Part shown: positions 5,481 to 26,392 of the stretch, in pieces
How positions within the stretch are numbered: the stretch's first letter is position 1
How the letters are laid out: each line of letters opens with the position of its first letter
NCBI GenBank assembly: GCA_945861595.1
Contig: CAMAVE010000005.1
Span: 1 to 63,172, forward strand
Direction of reading: 5' to 3'
DNA: 63,172 bases
DNA from: Synechococcus sp. UW140
GTDB taxonomy: Bacteria > Cyanobacteriota > Cyanobacteriia > PCC-6307 > Cyanobiaceae
Notes under the pieces: generated by a model
Databases searched by the model: none
The model's input: only the letters and a program-made list of their open reading frames with translations
What the model was told of the DNA's origin: nothing
Translations under genes and position numbers: made by a program

Positions 5481-6833
5481 ATGGAAGCCGATCTCGCCAA
5501 CGCAGCCAACAGCGAGGGGCAGGTCGTCGGCCCGGAGCGTCGTCGGGATCAGCTGAACTGGTCTGTAGCAGCGCGGATGTTCGGCCCGGCCTACCTGGTG
5601 GCCGTGGGTTACATGGACCCCGGCAACTGGGCGACGGATCTTGCCGCAGGATCGCGCTATGGCTTTGGCCTGCTGTGGGTGGTCGCCATCTCCAGCGGGA
5701 TGGCAATGGTGCTGCAGTCGCTCAGCTGCAGGCTGGGCATCGCCACGGGCTGGGATCTGGCCCAGGCCTGCCGACGTCTATTGCCTGACGCCTGGCGGAT
5801 TCCGCTGTGGCTGCTGGCTGAGGTGGCGATCGTGGCCTGCGACCTGGCGGAACTGGTGGGCAGTGCCATAGCTCTGCAGCTGCTGTTCGGCTTGCCCTTG
5901 CCCTGGGGCGTGGCCCTTACCGCTGGTGACACGCTGCTGCTGCTGGCCCTGCAACGCTTTGGCGTTCGTCGCCTGGAGGCGTTGATCATCGCGCTCGTGG
6001 CGCTGGTGGGTGCCTGCTTTGCCTGGGAGCTGTTGCTCCTGAAACCGGACTGGCTGCAGGTGGCTGCGGGATTCCTGCCGCAACCATCGGTGCTGCGGGA
6101 TGGGCAGCAGCTCTATATCGCTGCAGGCATCCTCGGCGCCACGGTGATGCCCCACAACCTCTATCTGCACTCTGCTCTTGTCAACACACGCCGCTGGCCA
6201 GAGCATCCGCCCACCAAACCGCTGCTCCTGCGGCTGGCCAGTCTGGATTCGGTGATGGCGTTGTCCTTCGCCTTTCTGGTGAACGCCGCGATCCTGATCC
6301 TCGCGGCAGGCACCTTTCATGGTGTGGTTGCGGAACCTGTGGAGGATCTCCGTCAGGCCTACACCCTGCTGAGCCCTCTGCTGGGAAGCACCCTCGCGGG
6401 GACCGTGTTCGCCGTTGCGTTGCTGGCCGCGGGACAGAGTTCCACCGTGACCGCCACCATGGCCGGACAGGTGGTGATGGAGGGCTTCCTCAACCTGCGC
6501 CTGCCTGACTGGCAGCGCCGGCTGATCACCCGGGCCTTGGCCCTGATCCCGGCCATGGCCACGGTGGTTCTGCTGGGAGATCAGGCCACAGCCCATCTGC
6601 TGGTGCTCAGCCAGGTGGTCCTGAGCCTGCAGTTGCCGTTTGCGGTCATCCCTCTCGTGCAGTTCTGCACCAGGCGTGGCCTCATGGGAGAGCTGCGGGC
6701 ACCCGGCTGGCTGCAGGGCCTCAGCTGGCTCTGTGCCGCCGCGATTGTGATCGTCAACGTCTCCTTGCTCTCCACCGTTCTGGCCTCTATCAGGCCATGG
6801 CAGTGGCTGACTGCGATGGCAAGCCATGGCTGA
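5481..6833 (+). CDS. mntH: Nramp-family divalent metal transporter
   Basis: A 450-residue polytopic membrane protein of the Nramp family, which imports Mn2+ or Fe2+ with protons. The metal-site motifs are DPGN at 46-49 and MPHN at 223-226; the retained Met in TM6 fits selection for transition metals over Ca/Mg. It starts one base after the VKOR-thioredoxin stop and its end overlaps the next gene by 8 bp, so the three form an operon. An importer under a CadR-type promoter is unexpected; Mn import might offset Cd or Zn toxicity. Confidence 0.92.
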   Translation: MEADLANAANSEGQVVGPERRRDQLNWSVAARMFGPAYLVAVGYMDPGNWATDLAAGSRYGFGLLWVVAISSGMAMVLQSLSCRLGIATGWDLAQACRRLLPDAWRIPLWLLAEVAIVACDLAELVGSAIALQLLFGLPLPWGVALTAGDTLLLLALQRFGVRRLEALIIALVALVGACFAWELLLLKPDWLQVAAGFLPQPSVLRDGQQLYIAAGILGATVMPHNLYLHSALVNTRRWPEHPPTKPLLLRLASLDSVMALSFAFLVNAAILILAAGTFHGVVAEPVEDLRQAYTLLSPLLGSTLAGTVFAVALLAAGQSSTVTATMAGQVVMEGFLNLRLPDWQRRLITRALALIPAMATVVLLGDQATAHLLVLSQVVLSLQLPFAVIPLVQFCTRRGLMGELRAPGWLQGLSWLCAAAIVIVNVSLLSTVLASIRPWQWLTAMASHG

Positions 6834-7254
6834 TGCAGCGCCACGCGCCGTCCTGGTAGCGGTTTGCAGCTCACTGCTGATCACCACGGCGGCCCAGGCC
6901 GCACCGGATTGCCTAGCCCTGAAGGGCCAACGCGATCAGCTCGCCAGGCGTGCGATGACAGCTGAGATCACCCTGTTGCATGCGTTTCGGCAGCGACTAT
7001 GCCCCAGCGATGAAGAGCGAGCGACACAGTCCAAGGCGCTGGCAAGCGGAACGACGGCGCGCGAGCCTTTCAACTATGAAACGTATATCCGTTGCCGCGA
7101 ACAAGCTGAACTCCAGCTGCAGCGCAGTCGGCCGGTTCTGTATCTCAATGTGCGGGGATTCACGTATTACACCCCCGAGGGATCACGTCTGGCAAGGGAA
7201 GCTGATGGCGTGAAGGAGCTGGTCGAGCGCACCTGTACGCCGCCCGCAACCTGA
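6826..7254 (+). CDS. Secreted protein of unknown function
   Basis: A 142-residue protein with a clear Sec signal peptide (hydrophobic VLVAVCSSLLITTAAQA, cleavage probably after AQA near residue 26). The mature part is about 115 residues, charged, with four cysteines (near 29, 59, 89 and 136) that could form two disulfides. I do not recognise the family. It overlaps the Nramp gene by 8 bp, so it is translationally coupled to it and belongs to the MerR-driven operon. Because its predicted form has paired cysteines, the upstream VKOR-thioredoxin could be its folding catalyst; that is inference. Confidence 0.7.
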   Translation: MADAAPRAVLVAVCSSLLITTAAQAAPDCLALKGQRDQLARRAMTAEITLLHAFRQRLCPSDEERATQSKALASGTTAREPFNYETYIRCREQAELQLQRSRPVLYLNVRGFTYYTPEGSRLAREADGVKELVERTCTPPAT

Positions 7255-7325: not shown

Positions 7326-8042
7326 TCAGCGGCTTGAAGCCCCGTACCACTGGCGATACCACTGAGCCATCTGCTCGATCTCACGGCTCTGGGCCTTCAC
7401 CATGGCCTGCTGCAGCTCCCGCAGCTCCGGATGCTGGCTGTTGGTCTGAGCCATCGAGGCCATCATCACGCCCATGCGGTGGTGGGGAATCATCTGCTCG
7501 ATGAAGGCCCGATCAAAATCAGGGGCGTTCTTCAGCCACTCGACATCGGTGCCCATCATCCCCATGCCACCGCCACGGCCCATCATCATTCCGCCGCTGC
7601 CGCCCATCCAGCCGCCCCAGCCGGAATAGACCCCACGCCCATAGCTTCCCCCCCATGCCGGCACATCGCCTCCAAACCACTGCCGGTACCAGGCGCGCAT
7701 CTGGTTGTTCTCCCTGGTCTGGCTGTCCTTGATGCTGCGCGCCAGGGACTTGATTTCAGGCCTCTTTGCACGGCTCAGGGCCAGATCTGCCATGGCGATG
7801 GCCCCTTCATGGTGGGGGATCATCATCGCGATGAAGTGCTGATCCATCGACTGGGTGCCCATCCGCCCTGGGCCTGGCAGGCCCCACCCCCTCCAACCTC
7901 CTGGTGAGACCGGCGAGGCGGGGGCTTGTGACAGCGCCGGAGCCCCGAGCGACAGAACAAGCGCGCCCAGCCCTGCTGTAGCAGCGCATCTCAGCACCAC
8001 CGCAGGTTTCTGACCGGATGCTGATGGGGGATGGATCATCAC
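7326..8042 (-). CDS. DUF305 protein, copy 1, with two domains and signal peptide
   Basis: A 238-residue exported protein. A signal peptide ends near residue 40 (ALSQA). Two DUF305 units follow, each with a MIPHH motif (about 75-78 and 187-190) and a Met/His-rich helix. They are joined by a Gly/Met/Trp-rich linker. DUF305 proteins are ferritin-like four-helix bundles found in copper and other metal resistance loci and are thought to bind metal in the periplasm. A good GGAGG ribosome site precedes the ATG at 8042. The upstream neighbour on the same strand is a dead merR gene. Confidence 0.88.
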   Translation of the reverse strand: MMIHPPSASGQKPAVVLRCAATAGLGALVLSLGAPALSQAPASPVSPGGWRGWGLPGPGRMGTQSMDQHFIAMMIPHHEGAIAMADLALSRAKRPEIKSLARSIKDSQTRENNQMRAWYRQWFGGDVPAWGGSYGRGVYSGWGGWMGGSGGMMMGRGGGMGMMGTDVEWLKNAPDFDRAFIEQMIPHHRMGVMMASMAQTNSQHPELRELQQAMVKAQSREIEQMAQWYRQWYGASSR

Positions 8043-8181
8043 GGTTCCTCCATGGGTTTCACCTGCCCACAGTGTGGAAACGCTGCAGGGGGCCGGATGC
8101 CGCTGCGAGTCATTGCTTCACGATCCGCCTCCAGACCTGAAGGCTGGGACGGATTCCATCGCCGTTCTCGGCGGGATTTGG

Positions 8182-8520
8182 CTACAAGCCGTCCAGCAGT
8201 TTCTGCGGTTCTCTCGTGAGTTCTCGCAACTCCTTGATCTAGCACTTGATTACTTCGACCTCGTGGCTGAGCTGATTTGCGATATCGCCGCAGGCCAGCT
8301 CACCGGCATCATTAACCGCCAGGCAGCCGGCACTCTTTGCCAGGGTGAGCCCCAGAGTTTTGGGCCGGCGGATGAACTCCAGGCGGCGCAGGCTGCTCTC
8401 ATCAAACAGGCTCTAACTGTTCTTGCTGCGCATCATCGCCTGCAGGAGGCCGAGATCCTCGTAGCAGCGCAGGGGTTTGACCGACAGGCCGCTGCGCGAG
8501 GTCAGCGCCCCGATCCATGC
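8182..8520 (-). pseudogene. Decayed MerR-family regulator gene
   Basis: Translating leftward in one frame gives a recognisable MerR protein: IGALTSRSGLSVK, then YEDLGLLQ, LRRLEFIRR, a metal-loop-like AGELACGD and a terminal IKELREL helix. Two in-frame stops interrupt it (TAG at 8415-8413 and at 8241-8239), and no start codon lies in frame before the helix-turn-helix; the natural end is TAG at 8184-8182. It reads away from the MerR-type promoter at 8539, which is the usual regulator/target layout. The target operon must therefore now rely on another regulator, most simply the related MerR at 14274. Confidence 0.85.
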
Positions 8521-8538: not shown

Positions 8539-8569
8539 TTGACTCTCCCCCTAGAGGAGACTCTAATGT
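8539..8569 (+). promoter_or_regulatory. MerR-type promoter/operator driving the DUF3721 operon
   Basis: TTGACT (8539-8544) and TAATGT (8564-8569) are separated by 19 bp holding an imperfect dyad with CTCTCC and GGAGA arms. The arms match the promoters at 14243-14273 and 15696-15726 and differ from the ACCCT/AGGGT pair at 4.4 kb. The predicted start near 8576 leaves about 20 nt before GTG 8598. Confidence 0.82.
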
Positions 8570-8597
8570 GGAATCAGGTTCTTTCCCTCTCCATTCC

Positions 8598-8813
8598 GTG
8601 AACCCGATCGTTCTGGCACTCCTCCTGTCGGCGGGTGTTGGCCTGTCCTCCGGTGCCGCCCACGCCCAGGCCTACGACATGTTCCCGAGCAAGGCCGCTG
8701 CTGAAAAGCGAGCCAAGGAACTGAAGTGCAGCGGCGCCTTTGCCATGGGCAAGGAGTGGATGCCCTGCCAGAACTTTGATGTCTACGAGAAGGCTGTCTC
8801 CAAGGTGAAGTGA
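8598..8813 (+). CDS. Exported DUF3721 mini-protein, copy 1
   Basis: A 71-residue protein with a signal peptide (about 1-23, ending AHAQA) and a single DUF3721-like unit: a MFPSKAAAEKRAKEL helix, a first Cys in KCSGAF, and a WMPC motif. The frame extends upstream to 8517, but that would place the promoter inside the gene, so I take GTG 8598. Function is unknown. The two conserved cysteines and the metal-type promoter suggest a small periplasmic metal-binding or redox protein. A second copy follows 46 bp downstream. Confidence 0.78.
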   Translation: MNPIVLALLLSAGVGLSSGAAHAQAYDMFPSKAAAEKRAKELKCSGAFAMGKEWMPCQNFDVYEKAVSKVK

Positions 8814-8859
8814 TTGTCCTGGCCTCCATGTCCTGCTCTAGTCAGCCCGCCATCACCCC

Positions 8860-9114
8860 ATGACGCAGTCCTCCACCAGGCTCCTGCAGCACTCCCACCG
8901 GCCGGCCCTGCTCGCGGCCATCGCAGCAGTGCTCTTCGCTCCGCTGCTCACCAACGCCCCTGCCTCGGCGCACATGAAGGGCATGTTCAGGACCAAACAG
9001 GAGGCTGAGAAGCGCGCCGCGGAACTCAAGTGCAAGGGCGCATTCGCGATGGGCAGCCTCTGGATGCCCTGCGCCAATGAGCAGGTCCTGCACAAGGCAC
9101 TCCAGAACGAATGA
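8860..9114 (+). CDS. Exported DUF3721 mini-protein, copy 2
   Basis: An 84-residue protein with a longer signal peptide (about 1-37, ending ASA) and the same core as copy 1: MFRTKQEAEKRAAELKC, then GAFAMG and WMPC. The mature proteins are clearly duplicates, while the leaders differ. The end overlaps the next ATG by 4 bp, so it is coupled to the membrane protein. The conserved spacing between the KC and MPC cysteines argues for a bound metal or a disulfide. Function unknown. Confidence 0.78.
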   Translation: MTQSSTRLLQHSHRPALLAAIAAVLFAPLLTNAPASAHMKGMFRTKQEAEKRAAELKCKGAFAMGSLWMPCANEQVLHKALQNE

Positions 9115-9389
9115 GGCGCCATCATCTGCTGCGCCGCGTGCACCGCACCCTGGTGCCCCTTGCGGCGGTGCCGCTGCTGCTCACGGCCCTCTCCGGCTCT
9201 CTTTACGGCGCCCTCTCGGCGCGGGAAATCGATGCTTTCTGGCTGATGAAGCTGCACACCGGAAACTTCGGCGCCGTCAATCTGCAGCCCTACTACTCCA
9301 CGGTTCTCGGCGTGCTCACCCTCTTCATCGCCGGCTCTGGCATTGGCATGCTGCTGACAAGTAGAAGGGGCAGGAAGCAGAACAGCTAG
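9111..9389 (+). CDS. Small membrane protein, PepSY-associated type
   Basis: A 92-residue protein with two hydrophobic segments (about 13-35 and 66-86) joined by a periplasmic loop that contains LHTGNFG. It resembles the N-terminal helix-plus-loop part of PepSY-TM proteins, in which HRTLV and LHTG occur, but lacks the rest. It overlaps the DUF3721 copy 2 gene by 4 bp and ends the MerR-driven operon. It could anchor or present the mini-proteins at the membrane. Family placement is tentative. Confidence 0.65.
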   Translation: MRRHHLLRRVHRTLVPLAAVPLLLTALSGSLYGALSAREIDAFWLMKLHTGNFGAVNLQPYYSTVLGVLTLFIAGSGIGMLLTSRRGRKQNS

Positions 9390-9559: not shown

Positions 9560-10030
9560 TTATAGATCATTTCCCGAATAGCCCAGCATGTGACGGCGCG
9601 CCAGATAGAGGATCAAGGGAGGCAAGGTAATCCATTGAACGACCGCAAGCGCGCTCATTCCCAGGATGGGCACTGCAAACACCGGAACACCATAGGATCT
9701 GGAGACATTGACACGAAAGGTTTCCAGTACAAGGGTGATCAGCAGCCCAATGCCGGTGAATAAGACAGTCAGTCGGCGACCCGGTTTCAGTAGCCAGTAC
9801 CGCGAACGTCTTAATATGCTGACGACCCAACTGCTGAACAGGATGATCATCCCATCCCCAAAGGAGCAGTGCGTCAGGTCGGCAACCTTCTCGCCCAAGG
9901 AGGGACTCGAATAGAATTCGTAAAATGGAGATTGCCAGACCTCATATACAAAGTTCAAGAGAAAAGCAAATAGAAAGAGATTTGTCTCTGGTGCTGCAAG
10001 AGCCTTCGAAATCATCAATGGCATGCGCAT
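9560..10030 (-). CDS. Conserved membrane protein of unknown function
   Basis: A 156-residue protein with about four transmembrane segments (roughly 14-32, 58-72, 87-105 and 122-147). Motifs visible are FVYEVWQSPFYE near the N-terminus and LTHCSFGDGMII. Codon use looks slightly less GC-rich than in its neighbours. I do not recognise a named family. It stands alone, convergent with the DUF3721 operon, with no clear promoter or partner. Confidence 0.65.
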   Translation of the reverse strand: MRMPLMISKALAAPETNLFLFAFLLNFVYEVWQSPFYEFYSSPSLGEKVADLTHCSFGDGMIILFSSWVVSILRRSRYWLLKPGRRLTVLFTGIGLLITLVLETFRVNVSRSYGVPVFAVPILGMSALAVVQWITLPPLILYLARRHMLGYSGNDL

Positions 10031-11280: not shown

Positions 11281-13452
11281 TCAAGCCGCTCGGTACCGCC
11301 GTAGCAGCGAGGAGTTGACGATCACCGACAGCGAACTCAGGGCCATCGCGGCCCCCGCGATCATCGGGTTGAGCCACCCCAGTGCTGCGATCGGAACCCC
11401 GAAACTGTTGTAGATGAAAGCCCAGAACAGGTTCTGGCGGATCTTGCGCATCGTGGCCCGCGACAGGCCGATCGCACTCACCACCAGACGCACGTCGTTG
11501 CGGATCAGGATGATGTCACCCGCCTCCTTGGCCACATCGGAACCGGAGCCGATGGCGATACCGATGTCGGCCGTGGCCAGGGCCGGCGCGTCGTTGACGC
11601 CATCGCCCACCATCGCCACCACCTGGCCCGCCTGCTGCAGGGCCTTGATCGTTCCCGCCTTATCCGCGGGGCGCACCTCGGCGATCACCTCCTCGATGCC
11701 CACCTGCTGGGCAATGGCCTTGGCCGTGGTGCGGTTGTCGCCGCTGAGCATGACCACCCGCACACCGCGGCGCCGCAGCAGGTCGACTGCTTGCCGGGCT
11801 TGGGGTTTGACCGTGTCCGCCACGGCGATCACGCCCAGGACCTGATCGCCGCGGCCCAGAATCATGGCGGTTTTGCCCTGGGCCTCGAGCTCAGCGAGCT
11901 GGCCCTGCACAAGCTCTGGAAGTTGGGGCAGGAAGCGGCTCGCCAGGGAACGGTTGCCGAACCAGACGGCACTTCCGCCCAGGCGGGCCGTGATCCCCTC
12001 TCCCACCTGGGCCTCGAATTGCTCCAGCGGCAGCAGCTCCAACTGGCGCATCGCAACGGCATCAACGATCGCGGCCGCCAGCGGATGTTCCGAGCCATGT
12101 TCCAGCGAACCAGCAAGCTGCAGCACCTCCTGCTGCGACACGGTCGCCACAGGTTCCAGATCGGTGAGCACCGGTTTGCCCAGGGTGAGCGTGCCGGTCT
12201 TGTCGAACACCACGGTGGTGAGCTTCTCGACACGCTCCAGCACCTCACCGCTGCGGATCAGGATGCCCAGGTCGGCGCCCTTGCCCACCCCCACCATCAA
12301 CGCCGCCGGTGTGGCGATGCCCAGGGCGCAGGGGCAGGAAATGACCAACACGGCGATGAACGCCAGCAGACCACTGCTGAACTGTCCGGCCAAGGTCCAC
12401 AGGATCAGGGCGGCAACGGCCACCACCACCACGGCCGGAACGAACCAGGCCGTGACCTGATCGGCCAGGCGTTGCACGCTGGCGGTGCTGGCCTGGGCCT
12501 CCTCGACGATGCGGATGATCTGTGCCAGCGAGGTATCGGCACCCACCCGGGTGGTGTGAAAGCGCAGCAGGCCCAGGCCATTCACGGTGCCACCGATCAG
12601 CTCCGCCCCGGCCAGCTTGCTCACGGGTAGCGATTCACCGGTGAGCAGGGACTCGTCGACAGAGGAACTGCCCTCCAGTACCACGCCATCAGCGGGGATC
12701 TTCTCGCCCGGGCGCACCAGCACTGTCTCGCCGAGGGCGATGGCGTCGGCCGGGATGGTCATCTCCATGCCGTCCCGGATCACCGTGGCCGTAGCGGGTT
12801 GCAGGTCCAGCAACTTGCGTACGGCGGCTGATGAGCGTTTCTTGATGATCTCCTCCATGTATTTGCCCATCAGCACGAAGGCGATCACCACCGCCGAGAC
12901 TTCGAAGTAGACGTCGCGCTGATTGACGCCGACCGGTAGCCAGCTGGGTGCGAACACCACCACCACGCTGTAGAGGTAGGCGACGGAGGTGCCCAGGGCG
13001 ATCAGCACATCCATGTTGAGCGCCCGGCGTTGAAGCGCCGCCCAGCTGCCCTGATAAAACGACCAGCCACCGATGATCTGCACAGGCGTGGCCAGGAGAA
13101 ACAGCCACATCCCCCAGCTCATCCAGGGGAGCGCCGGAATGGGAGCCCAGGACACCAGACTGATCCCCGCCGCCAGGGCGAGGAAGGCACCGGCCCGCAA
13201 CAGCGCCAGAGCCAGCACCCCGCCGATCACAAAGCCGACCCGGCGCCGCATGACCTGCAGCTCACGGTCGGGATTCAGAAAGGTCTGCAAACAGCCTTGG
13301 CTGCAGAAGTAATAGCTGCGCCCACCGCGCTGGGTGGAGAGGGCCGTGGCTACGGGCACCACCATGCCGCAGATCGGATCCTTGGCCATGCCCGAGCCGC
13401 TGGGGGCCTGGGGTGGATGGTTGTGGTGATGGCAGGCCTGGTGTGTGGTCAT
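11281..13452 (-). CDS. copA: Copper-exporting P1B-type ATPase with N-terminal YHS domain
   Basis: A 723-residue copper pump. The N-terminus has a His-rich start and a YHS metal domain (CGMVV near 28-32, YYFCSQGC at 47-54) instead of an HMA domain. CPC is at 373-375, TGES at 271-274, DKTGT at 417-421, and a [11 protein letters not shown] hinge and [13 protein letters not shown] in the last helices are typical of Cu+ pumps. It lies 40 bp after a DUF305 gene on the same strand and is transcribed with it from the MerR-type promoter at 14243-14273. DUF2933 and an ICMT-like gene follow. Confidence 0.95.
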
Positions 13453-13492: not shown

Positions 13493-14215
13493 TTACAGGT
13501 TGAACAGAGCGTCGTACTTCCGGTACTCCGGCTTGCGCAGACCCTCGAGGGCCAGCATCCGCCGCAGTTCCATGATCTCGGCGCGCTGGGCCACGATCAC
13601 CCCGCGGGCAAAGCGCCGGATCGTTGGGTTGGTGCTCTTGGCCAGCGCGTCGTGGGCCATCATCAGCGCCCCGCCGTGGTGCTCGATCATGCCCTCGAGG
13701 AACCACACCACCCGGTTGTCCTTGGTGGGGCCTTCGCCCATCATCCGCATGCCGTCGATCTGGGCCTGGCTCATGCGCGTGAGCCCGCTGAGGCTGCTGG
13801 GGTCGCCGCCCGCTGCCAGCGCCACGGGGTACACGGGGGCCTGGGGGTACCAGGCCTTACGCCACAGTCCCATCGCCCGGATCTCCTGGGCCTGGTCGCG
13901 CCAGATCGTTCGGGCCAGGGCCCCCACACCGGGTTGGCCGATGTTGAACATGAACTCGCTCATGCGCAGGGCACCGGTGTGGTGCTGCACCATGCCGTCG
14001 ATGAAGCGCAGGTCGTAGGTGCTGCCGGCCGGGCCCACGTCATGGGTGTGGGCGCTGTGGTCCATCGGCGCGGCGACCGGAGCCGAGGCCGGTGCGCCCC
14101 CCGCGGCCGGGGCCGGGGCCATCATCCGGTGGTGCTGGTGGGGATCCATCTGGGCCTGGGCCGCCGGAGCCAGCAGGCCAGCCAGGGCCGCGAGAACCAG
14201 GAGAGGGGATCGCAT
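13493..14215 (-). CDS. DUF305 protein, copy 2
   Basis: A 240-residue exported protein with a signal peptide ending near residue 22 (AQAQ), a His-rich spacer (MDPHQHHRMM and MDHSAHTH), and two DUF305-like bundles with MVQHHTG near 75 and MIEHHGG near 175. It differs from copies 1 and 3, which keep MIPHH and the Met/Gly linker. It is the first gene after the MerR-type promoter and is followed by copA, which fits a role as a periplasmic copper binder feeding or buffering the export system. Confidence 0.88.
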   Translation of the reverse strand: MRSPLLVLAALAGLLAPAAQAQMDPHQHHRMMAPAPAAGGAPASAPVAAPMDHSAHTHDVGPAGSTYDLRFIDGMVQHHTGALRMSEFMFNIGQPGVGALARTIWRDQAQEIRAMGLWRKAWYPQAPVYPVALAAGGDPSSLSGLTRMSQAQIDGMRMMGEGPTKDNRVVWFLEGMIEHHGGALMMAHDALAKSTNPTIRRFARGVIVAQRAEIMELRRMLALEGLRKPEYRKYDALFNL

Positions 14216-14242: not shown

Positions 14243-14273
14243 AGGATGGAGCCTCCTGTAGGTGGAGAGTCAA
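14243..14273 (-). promoter_or_regulatory. MerR-type promoter/operator driving DUF305-copA operon
   Basis: Leftward TTGACT (14273-14268), a 19-bp spacer with CTCCACC and GGAGGCTC arms, then CATCCT (14248-14243). It shares arms with the promoters at 8539 and 15696. It overlaps the 5' end of the divergent merR gene, so regulator and target share this region. Confidence 0.78.
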
Positions 14274-14663
14274 GTGGTGGTGGCGGCGCCCTTGAAGATC
14301 GGTGAGGTGGCTGAGCGCTCCGGCCTCACCGTCAAGACCATCCGCTTCTACTGCGATGAGGGACTGATCCATCCGATCAGCCGCAGTGAGGGCGGCTATC
14401 GCCTGTTCAGCGATGCGGTGTTCGCCGAGCTGACCCTGATCCGCACCCTCAAGGCCATGGACATTCCGCTCCAGGATGTGACCCAGATCCTGGAATCCCG
14501 GCGTTCAGGCGTGTGCACCTGCGCCTCGCTGCAGGCGACGATCCGCAGCAAGGCGGGCGAGATCGAGCAGAAGATCGCCGCCCTGCGCGATCTGCACACC
14601 GAACTCCATGGCCTGCTCAGCCGCTGGGAGGACTGTGGCGGCCAGAAGCCCTCAGCCGCCTGA
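14274..14663 (+). CDS. MerR-family metal-responsive regulator, second copy
   Basis: A MerR-type regulator of about 130 residues with the helix-turn-helix KIGEVAERSGLTVKTIRFY, a dimer helix, and cysteines in SGVCTC and in a terminal WEDCGG. This differs from the CueR-type CxnC loop, so the metal cannot be fixed from sequence. The frame is open from GTG 14262, but that start would place the divergent promoter's -35 inside the gene; GTG 14274, 14277 or 14280, or TTG 14292 directly before KIGEV, are better. The C-terminal gene end overlaps DUF305 copy 3 by 12 bp. It is the best candidate to control the CTCC/GGAG promoters. Confidence 0.85.
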   Translation: MVVAAPLKIGEVAERSGLTVKTIRFYCDEGLIHPISRSEGGYRLFSDAVFAELTLIRTLKAMDIPLQDVTQILESRRSGVCTCASLQATIRSKAGEIEQKIAALRDLHTELHGLLSRWEDCGGQKPSAA

Positions 14664-15695: not shown

Positions 15696-15726
15696 TTGAC
15701 TCTCCCCTCAAGGGGAGGCTCTACGG
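15696..15726 (+). promoter_or_regulatory. MerR-type promoter/operator driving DUF411 and multicopper oxidase
   Basis: TTGACT (15696-15701), a 19-bp spacer containing a near-perfect CTCCCCT/AGGGGAG dyad, then CTACGG (15721-15726) as a weak -10. It matches the promoters at 8539 and 14243. The predicted start near 15733 precedes ATG 15752. Confidence 0.8.
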
Positions 15727-15751: not shown

Positions 15752-16249
15752 ATGAATGCATTGACCCTCCGCCTTCTCCCAAAGGCCTTGAGTCTGCTGT
15801 TGACGTTCGGCGGGGCCTTGGCCGTTTCCTCAGGGAATGTCGCCCACGCGGCCCAGGCCAGTGCTCCGGCCCTGACTCCTGTCACGGCCTATCGCACGGC
15901 CAGCTGCGGCTGCTGCAAGGGCTGGTTGCAGCACATGCGCGCCAATGGTTTCGTTGTCCGGGATGTCGTGGTGGCGGATCTCCAGGCGATCAAGCGACGC
16001 CTGGGCGTGCCCAATCGCCTCAACTCGTGCCACACCGCCGAAGTGGCTGGCTTTGCGATCGAGGGTCACGTTCCTGCCGCCGATGTGAGGCGACTGCTGC
16101 GCAGTCGCCCGGCCGTGGCCGGCATCGCCGTTCCCGGCATGCCCCTGGGTTCCCCAGGGATGGAATCGCCTTATGGCAAGGAGCCGTTCACGGTGCTGGC
16201 CTTCACCCGCGCAGGAACCATCAGCGCCTTCTCCCGTCACCCCCAGTGA
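15752..16249 (+). CDS. DUF411 exported metal-binding protein
   Basis: A 165-residue protein with a signal peptide (hydrophobic LSLLLTFGGALAVSS, ending AHAAQA near residue 34) and a DUF411 domain: a thioredoxin-like fold with CGCCKGW at about 52-58, SCHTAEV from Cys93, and a GHVPAADVRRLL helix. DUF411 proteins accompany copper and silver resistance genes. ATG 15752 is preferred because upstream starts (GTG 15734, ATG 15683) precede or crowd the promoter. A multicopper oxidase gene follows after 10 bp. Confidence 0.88.
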   Translation: MNALTLRLLPKALSLLLTFGGALAVSSGNVAHAAQASAPALTPVTAYRTASCGCCKGWLQHMRANGFVVRDVVVADLQAIKRRLGVPNRLNSCHTAEVAGFAIEGHVPAADVRRLLRSRPAVAGIAVPGMPLGSPGMESPYGKEPFTVLAFTRAGTISAFSRHPQ

Positions 16250-16259
16250 GGCCCCGGCC

Positions 16260-17735
16260 ATGACCACTCCCCTGCGGCGCAGGCAGGTGCTGGGCCTGGG
16301 GTTCGCCGCCCTGGGCACGGCGGTGGCGGCTCCGGCTGTCTGGAACCGGCTCCAGCGCTCCGCCTCGTCCCTTCGACCCGCCACCCTGGCCTCCCGGGGT
16401 GGTGTGGCCGAGCTCGAGTTGTTGGCCCAGTCCTCACGGAGCACCATCCCGGGCGGCCCTGCCGAGCTGCTCACCTACAACGGCCGATCACCCGGCCCTT
16501 TGCTGGAGGTGAAGGCCGGAGATCAGGTGCGCCTGCGGCTGCGCAATGGTCTGAATCAGCCCACCAACCTGCACTTCCACGGGCTCCACATCCCGCCCAC
16601 CGGAACGGGCGACAACGTGTTCCTGACGGTGCCGCCCGGCGGGTCCACCGAGTACGCCTTCCGCCTCGCCAAGGACCACCCGGCCGGCCTCTTCTACGTC
16701 CACCCCCACCAGCACGGCCTCTCGGCGGATCAGGTGTTCGGCGGCCTCGGCAGTGCCCTGGTGGTGCGCGGCGATCTGGACCGGATTCCGGAAGTGGCGG
16801 CCGCCCACGAAAGCGTGCTGGTTCTCAAAGATTACGCCAGCAGCGGCGGCCAGGACGCCGCCATGGGCGTCGGGCGCATGCTCGGCCGGGAAGGTCGCCT
16901 GCTCACGGTGAACGGGGAGATCAACCCGGAGCTGCCTATCCCCAGCGGTGGACTGCTGCGGCTGCGCCTGCTGAATGCCTCCAACGCCCGCATCTACCGC
17001 CTGGCCCTGGAGGGGCATCCCCTGGTGCTCATCGCCACCGATGGCGGTGCGATCGGGACGCCTGAGCCCCTCAAGGAGCTGGTGCTGGCACCGGGCGAGC
17101 GGGCCGATGTGCTGGTGCAGGGAAACCAGACTCCTGGCAGCTACCGGCTGCTCAACCTGCCCTACCGGCGCAGTGGCCACATGGGCATGGGCGCCGCTGA
17201 GGAACGCCCCCGGACGCTGGCCACCCTGCGCTACGCCGGAGCGGTGGCGCCGTTGCCGCTGCCGCAGACCCTGATCCCGGTGGCCGCCCTGCCGGCACCG
17301 GAGCGCACCCGCCGGTTCGTCCTGGCCCACGCCATGGGGATGGGTGGCATGGGCGGCATGAACCACGCCATGGGAGGCATGGGGGGTGGCGGCATGGGCA
17401 TGGGCTTCCAGATCAATGGCCAGGCGTTCGAACCGGATCGCATCAACACCCGAGTGCAGCTCGGCAGCACGGAAGACTGGTTGATCGTCAACGACGACGT
17501 GATGGACCATCCCTTCCATCTGCACGTCAATCCCTTCCAGGTGATCACCCGCGGGGGCCGACCTGAATCCCAGCGCCGCTGGAAGGACACCGTGCTCGTG
17601 AAAGCGGGCGAGGAGGTGCGGCTCCGGGTGACGTTCCGGGATTTTCCCGGTCGCACCGTCTACCACTGCCACAACCTGGACCATGAGGACATGGGTCTGA
17701 TGGGGGTTCTGCAGATCGAGGAGCGAGGCGTCTGA
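16260..17735 (+). CDS. Multicopper oxidase, CueO-like, Tat-exported
   Basis: A 491-residue three-cupredoxin oxidase. It begins with a Tat-like signal (RRRQVLGLGFAAL). The four copper motifs are HFHGLH from residue 105, HPHQHG from 148, HPFHLHVNPF around 422 and HCHNLDHEDM from 469, which form the type 1 and trinuclear copper centres. A Met/Gly-rich loop (MGGMNHAMGGMGGGG) before domain 3 resembles the methionine-rich insert of copper-resistance oxidases such as CueO, which oxidise Cu(I) in the periplasm. It is co-transcribed with DUF411. Confidence 0.93.
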   Translation: MTTPLRRRQVLGLGFAALGTAVAAPAVWNRLQRSASSLRPATLASRGGVAELELLAQSSRSTIPGGPAELLTYNGRSPGPLLEVKAGDQVRLRLRNGLNQPTNLHFHGLHIPPTGTGDNVFLTVPPGGSTEYAFRLAKDHPAGLFYVHPHQHGLSADQVFGGLGSALVVRGDLDRIPEVAAAHESVLVLKDYASSGGQDAAMGVGRMLGREGRLLTVNGEINPELPIPSGGLLRLRLLNASNARIYRLALEGHPLVLIATDGGAIGTPEPLKELVLAPGERADVLVQGNQTPGSYRLLNLPYRRSGHMGMGAAEERPRTLATLRYAGAVAPLPLPQTLIPVAALPAPERTRRFVLAHAMGMGGMGGMNHAMGGMGGGGMGMGFQINGQAFEPDRINTRVQLGSTEDWLIVNDDVMDHPFHLHVNPFQVITRGGRPESQRRWKDTVLVKAGEEVRLRVTFRDFPGRTVYHCHNLDHEDMGLMGVLQIEERGV

Positions 17736-25694: not shown

Positions 25695-26392
25695 GCATTC
25701 TCCTTGCCGTTTGCCTGGCCGTTCGTCCAACCACCACCAAGCCCAAGCCTTAGGGCAGCGCGAGCGCTCCTGGTCGGGGGCTGGGGGAAGCGGTTGAACC
25801 GATTTCCCCGATCAAGGGACGATTGGCGATCTCCGGCCATTGGCTCCCCTGGTCGACCTTGCTGGCGTTGCTAGCAGGGCCCGCCTGGGGCCAGATAGTC
25901 CTAGAGACGATGCCAACACCATCGCCCTCACCAGGCGCGAACCAGGCCCTAGAAGGTGCCTGGCATCCCATTTTGACAGCCATCCCTAGGCCAGCTCTTC
26001 CAGCTGCCTCCCTCGCGCAATCGCTTGGCTCCTACGACGCAGGGATGGAGCAAGGGAATGGCTGCAGGAGGGGAGCCGAGGCCAAGGCAAGGCGGTAACG
26101 CTGGATTGGGATAGGCCTTTTCGGCATGGCACGATCCCTGCCTGATGCCAAGAAAGGCTTCTTGCCGCAGCGCCTGCTCCGGGATCGGTGCTGTCAGGCT
26201 GCCACCCGTTGCCCACGATCCGACCCTGGCCATCGCTGCGTGTCGCTGAGCGCTAGCGCCGCCACGCAGCCGCCTCAGGGGTGAGGCGCCCCTCCCCACC
26301 TGCCTCCCGAGGTGCTCCTGTGAAGTTTCACTGAGCCACCCCAGGCGGCCGCCCGGCCGAACCTAGGCTCCTTCAGATTCTCTTAAGAATTG
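25695..26392. other. Gene-free stretch
   Basis: About 700 bp. An open frame at 25823-26098 starts with a short hydrophobic run, but it is Pro/Ser/Arg-rich afterwards and has no clear ribosome site. A CCTAGG-type palindrome recurs (25689, 25986, 26362). A short AT-rich run near 26380 could be the promoter of the small Cys-rich gene that follows. Nothing else is recognised. Confidence 0.45.

Follow-up and report, generated by a model that had tools for sequence, protein, structure and literature searches.

Introduction

In Synechocystis, copper resistance involves CopM, a copper-binding DUF305 protein controlled by the two-component system CopRS (PMC4335983). Among PepSY_TM reductases, FoxB binds two haems through histidines on both membrane faces, and CrpH, a proposed copper reductase, needs the same His motifs (PMC13038864). 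It is established that an N-terminal His can chelate transition metals through its amino group and imidazole (PMC12537917), and the histidine brace is a natural metal chelate formed by such a residue (PMC10952591). CopC, DUF6702 proteins and anglerases are exported, with a conserved His at the predicted mature N-terminus and further potential ligands (PMC12537917). MerR-family operons of the mer, cad and zntA type combine a divergent regulator with an operator that has a 19-20-nt spacer. CueR, the Cu(I)-type member of this family, has Ser at the position equivalent to Cys77 of CadR.

Here we describe an operon of three small genes, A, B and C, in Synechococcus sp. UW140, within a 63,172-nt stretch of contig CAMAVE010000005.1 (hereafter the window). 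Although its components are reminiscent of known systems, none of the described systems tested has this combination of parts or a half-size membrane partner of this kind. DUF3721, the domain of proteins A and B (PF12518), is not mentioned in the literature searched, nor is it in the paper on N-terminal-His metalloproteins (PMC12537917), and the description of the operon as an undescribed system in an earlier note thus appears to hold. The firmest layer of our interpretation is that this is a metal-regulated periplasmic metal-handling module, which we consider very probable. The fuller reading, in which A-B-C provides metal-inducible periplasmic metal handling with B capturing the metal and C serving as a half-size haem-type electron carrier, is tentative and stands at slightly less than an even chance.

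Operon layout and conservation

The A-B-C operon is real and conserved. Gene A (8598..8813, +) encodes an exported DUF3721 mini-protein of 71 aa with two Cys and no His in its mature part; gene B (8860..9114, +) encodes a second such protein of 84 aa with His38 as its predicted mature start; and gene C (9111..9389, +) encodes a two-helix membrane protein of 92 aa, like a miniature PepSY_TM protein, with invariant H11 and H49. A and B score 43.1 and 53.2 bits against PF12518, both above the curated cut-off of 27 bits, and the 2.18-Mb assembly has no further DUF3721 match. Given that their mature parts are 55% identical, the earlier note was correct in describing them as duplicated, and the spaced Cys pair that it saw in the contexts KC and WMPC corresponds to C58 and C71 of B. 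The start codon of C lies within the stop codon of B (ATGA, 9111-9114), and this 4-nt overlap bears out the proposed coupling to a two-helix membrane protein. The start codon of A is GTG 8598; translation from ATG 8517 was rejected, because that longer ORF begins upstream of the promoter. In comparisons with two relatives, all three genes have dN/dS values of 0.13-0.24, indicating purifying selection, which together with the conserved gene order rules out chance or artefact as the origin of the operon. Gene order, coupling, operator, export motifs and invariant residues were all read directly from the sequence.

Conservation of the neighbourhood in other genomes had been set beforehand as a test, and a DUF3721 gene lies directly upstream of C, on the same strand, in 130 of 143 C matches. 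B and C overlap by 4 nt in 71 of 116 distinct pairs, and in nearly all others C starts within ~25 nt of the B stop codon. The conserved core is therefore B-C. The three-gene unit that was originally proposed stands as one recurring layout (merR | A-B-C, as in the window) and not as the core. A second layout is MerR | DUF305-B-C, a single gene row with the operator before DUF305 (~35 loci), and a third is DUF411-B-C or B-C alone, for example in genomes of 1.6-1.7 Mb.

Operator and regulators

The operon is preceded by a MerR-type promoter and operator (8539..8569, +; TTGACTCTCCCCCTAGAGGAGACTCTAATGT), with a -35 hexamer TTGACT at 8539, a 19-nt spacer and a -10 hexamer TAATGT ending at 8569. The dyad ACTCTCC-N7-GGAGACT lies between the hexamers, and the MerR-type promoter suspected at this position is thus present. 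No ordinary promoter was found at the operon by a sigma-70 consensus scan, as expected with a 19-nt spacer. The exact operator pattern (TTGACYYTCC-N6-9-GGAG) matches three times in the window, compared with 0.01 matches expected from shuffles, and likewise three times in the whole assembly, where the reversed control pattern has no match. All three operators of this genome fall within one metal island, each before metal genes: A-B-C, a DUF305 gene with a divergent MerR gene (14253..14273, -, overlapping the start of this second MerR ORF), and a DUF411-multicopper oxidase pair (15696..15717, +). The operator was found in 69 of 201 Cyanobiaceae genomes, in which the reversed control pattern matched once.

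The relationship to MerR-family operons of the mer, cad and zntA type is evident in the dyad operator between the -35 and -10 hexamers, the 19-20-nt spacer and the divergent regulator. An intact divergent regulator is, however, missing at the operon in the window genome. In its place is a decayed merR (8134..8514, -), which is intact in most relatives, including the cultured strains Synechococcus sp. CS-1325 and Cyanobium sp. N.Huapi 1H5, and is 57% identical, with in-frame stops, to the intact merR of locus L040 over query residues 3-129. At the 29 other best C-match loci, several of which are near-identical and a few of which have A lost or broken, a divergent merR homologue is present at the operon in 26 and a box with a 20-nt spacer precedes the operon in 24. 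The operator of A-B-C in the window has N7 between its dyad arms, whereas 23 distinct relatives with the exact box have N8 (20-nt spacer); the operator before the second DUF305 gene likewise has N7. Loss of the cognate merR, with a spacer one base shorter, may reflect regulatory rewiring to the second MerR regulator (14262..14663, +; MerR_1, E=1e-16), which is a possible trans-acting regulator of the operon. Either this second MerR serves the operator in the window genome, or the operator has escaped control. The apparent decay of merR may alternatively be an assembly error, which is conceivable as the assembly is ~86% complete and in 143 contigs.

What the cognate regulator senses is only partly suggested by its sequence. 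The operon-type MerR proteins of relatives fall below the NCBIfam equivalog cut-offs for CueR, ZntR, CadR and MerR (best score 89 bits, cut-offs of at least 143), so all four identities were rejected. In this respect they differ from the regulators of mer-, cad- and zntA-type operons, and they have their own conserved Cys/His set: a Cys aligned with Cys77 of CadR, together with C65, H69 and C123. The second MerR type has conserved Cys74 and Cys76 near the CadR Cys77 position, as well as C114. A Cys near this position in both MerR types is typical of divalent-metal sensors and unlike CueR, which makes copper uncertain.

Metal-gene neighbourhood

The operon has metal-resistance genes as neighbours. 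An exported CopM-like DUF305 protein (7326..8042, -; PF03713, E=9e-46) is encoded upstream. Downstream are a copper-type P1B-ATPase (11281..13452, -), which scores 575.8 bits against TIGR01511 (cut-off 397) and confirms the copper-type ATPase reported nearby, and a second DUF305 protein (13493..14215, -; PF03713, E=9e-29) behind the same operator type as A-B-C. Also behind this operator type is a DUF411 protein (15752..16249, +; PF04214, E=9e-26), whose start was placed after the promoter by inspection, followed by a multicopper oxidase (16173..17735, +; PF07731/PF07732/PF00394), whose true start is probably further in than 16173. The island also encodes a membrane protein (9560-10030, -) and a small exported protein (6826-7254, +), both without a Pfam match. 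Across genomes, a gene for DUF305, DUF411, multicopper oxidase or P1B-ATPase lies within 5 kb of B-C in 57 of the 83 loci whose flanks extend 7 kb or more, and none of these four searched-for genes does in the other 26.

Given that DUF305 is the domain of the copper-binding CopM, the regulon points to copper, and we consider copper the metal with moderate confidence. The likeness to the CopM system consists of DUF305 genes in the same island behind the same operator type and of the DUF305-B-C rows in many relatives. Unlike CopM in Synechocystis, which answers to CopRS, these genes have a MerR-type operator.

The same neighbourhood bears on whether the module acquires metal rather than conferring resistance, with B fishing periplasmic metal inward, as anglerases do, and C reducing it for uptake in the manner of CrpH. 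Such a role would fit the attachment of N-terminal-His anglerases to permeases (PMC12537917), the support that CrpH gives to copper-dependent oxidases (PMC13038864) and the retention of B-C in streamlined 1.6-1.7-Mb genomes. However, metal excess is the normal inducer of MerR-type promoters, the neighbours are detoxification-type genes and no importer is consistently attached, and we consider acquisition improbable.

Exported proteins A and B

Based on 51 diverse B proteins, the invariant residues of B (window numbering) are H38, G41, A49, C58, P70, C71, E74, L77 and H78. His38 directly follows the predicted signal peptide and is His in all 116 distinct B proteins. In the same 116, the residue at -1 is A, S, G or T and that at -3 is A, S, G, V, L or T. 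The cleavage site was predicted by the -3/-1 rule, and since these residues fit signal peptidase I, mature B is predicted to start with His. B thus shares with N-terminal-His metal proteins both the predicted post-cleavage His (116/116) and a second conserved His (H78). His38, the Cys pair and the C-terminal His78 likely form a metal site, as judged from conservation.

The DUF3721 domain is modelled as alpha-beta-beta-alpha with a mean pLDDT above 90; the two Cys flank a short beta-hairpin, and the conserved His of B would be located at an exposed tip. In fold searches against solved structures B had no significant match, and neither B nor C matched PDB sequence profiles. Compared with CopC, DUF6702 proteins and anglerases, B is built on this ~50-residue predicted domain with an added Cys pair. 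Both A and B are members of PF12518, a family without a described function. What sets B apart is its invariant His at the mature N-terminus and an LH at the C-terminus, and in the operon-type copies the C-x-G-x-H motif is without its internal His. This internal His occurs in many B proteins outside the A-B-C layout and is Phe in the A-B-C type. Protein A has nearly the same domain as B and no His in nearly all of 18 distinct homologues.

Two Cys are retained in A and B even in copies that have lost every His, and in the B model they lie beside the hairpin. Both observations could also be explained by a thiol-disulfide relay, in which the Cys pairs of A and B would cycle, C would be the electron source, metal-damaged periplasmic proteins would be repaired and metal binding would be incidental. 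We think this unlikely, given that the Cys are 12 residues apart and not arranged as CxxC, that His38 and His78 of B are as conserved as the Cys, and that the fold search of B against solved structures returned no thioredoxin-like fold. More improbable still is that DUF3721 is a small structural zinc-finger-like module with a coincidental regulatory link to metals. A DUF3721-like C-x3-H...C-x2-H stretch within a protein of a phage structural-gene region would suit this explanation. The B subfamily of the operon, however, has lost the internal His (Phe instead) and keeps His38 and His78, and many loci repeat both the operator and the arrangement in a row with metal genes.

Membrane protein C

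Protein C is predicted to form two long helices joined by a short loop (AlphaFold2, mean pLDDT 76). H11 and H49 are invariant in all 122 C proteins compared, as are P21, T25, G29, W44 and G51. Judging from the distribution of charges, H11 would lie where helix 1 meets the cytoplasm and H49 within the loop on the periplasmic side, which would place a conserved His on each membrane face, as in PepSY_TM proteins. PepSY_TM is also the commonest Pfam match of C relatives (50 of 56 members, best 6e-6). Taken singly, however, window C scores 12.3 bits and its relatives up to ~25 against PF03929 (PepSY_TM), below the cut-off of 28.8 bits, and the periplasmic PepSY domain between the helices is absent. 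Protein C may thus work in a PepSY_TM-like manner, but with these two features of membership lacking we do not file it as a member. The likeness to FoxB and CrpH consists of the invariant His on both faces and of the link of CrpH to copper (PMC13038864), whereas C has only 92 aa and two helices. The earlier statement that no enzyme is present may therefore be wrong, since C resembles half of a PepSY_TM metal reductase core with two invariant His.

Other identities for C were considered. FtsX (E 0.005 here) was rejected because it is the rarer match (20 versus 50 of 56 members), and C as a fragment of a local full-length PepSY_TM protein was rejected because no such protein scores above the cut-off in 41 Cyanobiaceae genomes. 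Fold searches of C against solved structures gave no significant match. Two-helix paralogues of C occur elsewhere in cyanobacteria. One in the window genome (L205; contig C14, ~25938-26198) is located between rplS-like and map-like genes, a neighbourhood shared by L200.

Natural tandem fusions of C relatives (~190 aa) carry the H...LH.G pattern twice, and one of them reaches 47.4 bits for PepSY_TM, above the 28.8-bit cut-off, in a match that runs from the last part of copy 1 into the first part of copy 2. Such fusions (L212-L217, e.g., L213:1501-2091) are found in other cyanobacteria, with the same His pair in each half. Together with the two-helix paralogues, they link C to the PepSY_TM family. 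A homodimer of C would supply two His per membrane face.

The chief alternative to electron transfer is passive buffering, in which A and B would be periplasmic metal chaperones or sponges and C a mere membrane anchor or dock without haem. This explanation shares the regulon and the His/Cys evidence with our main reading and could account for the sub-threshold PepSY_TM score of C and for the phages that carry B without C. Yet a simple anchor would have no need of H11 and H49, invariant in 122 C proteins, or of the PepSY_TM-like H...LH.G pattern, and the natural four-helix fusions of C relatives also speak against it. We regard passive buffering as possible but rather unlikely. Haem binding and electron transfer by C are in our judgement a real possibility, somewhat short of an even one.

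Distribution and phage copies

DUF3721 was found in 262 of 300 Cyanobiaceae genomes. Among 386 cyanobacterial genomes sampled more widely, the 57 with a match all belong to Cyanobiaceae, and none of the 328 from outside this family has one, in which respect the module also differs from the CopM system. Named records with the operon are from Cyanobium and Synechococcus.

Several loci depart from the common arrangements. Two separate DUF3721-C gene pairs occur within 10 kb of one genome (L126), and in L193 (5324-5650, -) a B with an extra hydrophobic C-terminal helix directly precedes C. In an IMG/VR contig (L226) an integrase-like gene adjoins DUF305-B-C, which suggests that this cassette is able to sit on an integrative element. 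A different DUF3721 tandem (L003:1486-2197, L004:1492-2354, L005, L011:1399-2115 and L018) consists of an exported DUF3721 copy, often lipoprotein-like with a His-rich tail, and a protein of 145-160 aa that has hydrophobic GIxPxGxxSIG repeats and carries DUF3721 at its C-terminus. It lies near a porin-like gene or a Fur-family-like regulator and is perhaps another metal system.

Three IMG/VR contigs (L227/L230, L228/L231 and L229/L232) carry B without C, with the N-terminal His, the Cys pair and the LH pattern all intact. These copies (L227:4938-5156, L228 and L229:3430-3648) lie beside a glutaredoxin-like gene. Transaldolase, thymidylate synthase and PhoH genes are also among their neighbours, and the DNA of these genes resembles that of T4-like Synechococcus phages, Bellamy and S-SM2 among them. 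The presence of B without C on these contigs suggests that B can be useful alone. A plasmid or cultured-phage origin of B was rejected, with no match in 72,556 plasmid and 50,697 phage records. Phage B has a weak match (E 2e-4, 20 residues) to the PHROG 'cell division inhibitor'. Two further IMG/VR matches (L233:4024-5154 and L234:5243-6373), in which a DUF3721-like C-x-G-x-H ... MPC-x-x-H stretch lies inside a 376-aa protein of a phage structural-gene region, were rejected as B copies.

Proposed function and implications

We suggest the following scheme, in which metal identity, haem, electron flow and hand-over are the parts that we infer. Rising metal would cause a MerR regulator to turn the regulon on. 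Protein B would bind periplasmic metal, most likely copper, through the amino-terminal chelate of His1 (His38 of the precursor), His78 and/or the thiolates. A homodimer of C could rebuild the four-helix, four-histidine core of a PepSY_TM reductase and bind two haems. The dimer would take its electrons from the quinone pool or on the cytoplasmic side and deliver them outward, reducing Cu(II) bound to B or the cysteines of B or A. The final recipient of the metal might be a DUF305 protein, the multicopper oxidase or another carrier in the periplasm. As a His-less, Cys-only paralogue, A could serve as a thiol partner or metal acceptor.

A bolder proposal is that picocyanobacteria possess, in just the two genes B-C, a minimal transmembrane metal reductase, in which the 50-residue exported B captures copper at its N-terminal His and Cys pair and C, a half-size haem membrane protein related to the PepSY_TM core, reduces it as a homodimer, and that cyanophages took B as an auxiliary gene. 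In this complete form we think the proposal is probably not correct, although it is by no means far-fetched. Should C prove to be a haem protein, the PepSY_TM reductase core would be seen in a minimal form, and the tandem-fused relatives would be accounted for.

Nearly all sampled Cyanobiaceae have DUF3721, a domain without a described role. The analyses presented here offer a concrete role that can be tested, with exact candidates for the metal ligands of B and the haem ligands of C and with an operator and regulon that are defined. The B gene carried by cyanophages would link infection to the metal handling of the host.
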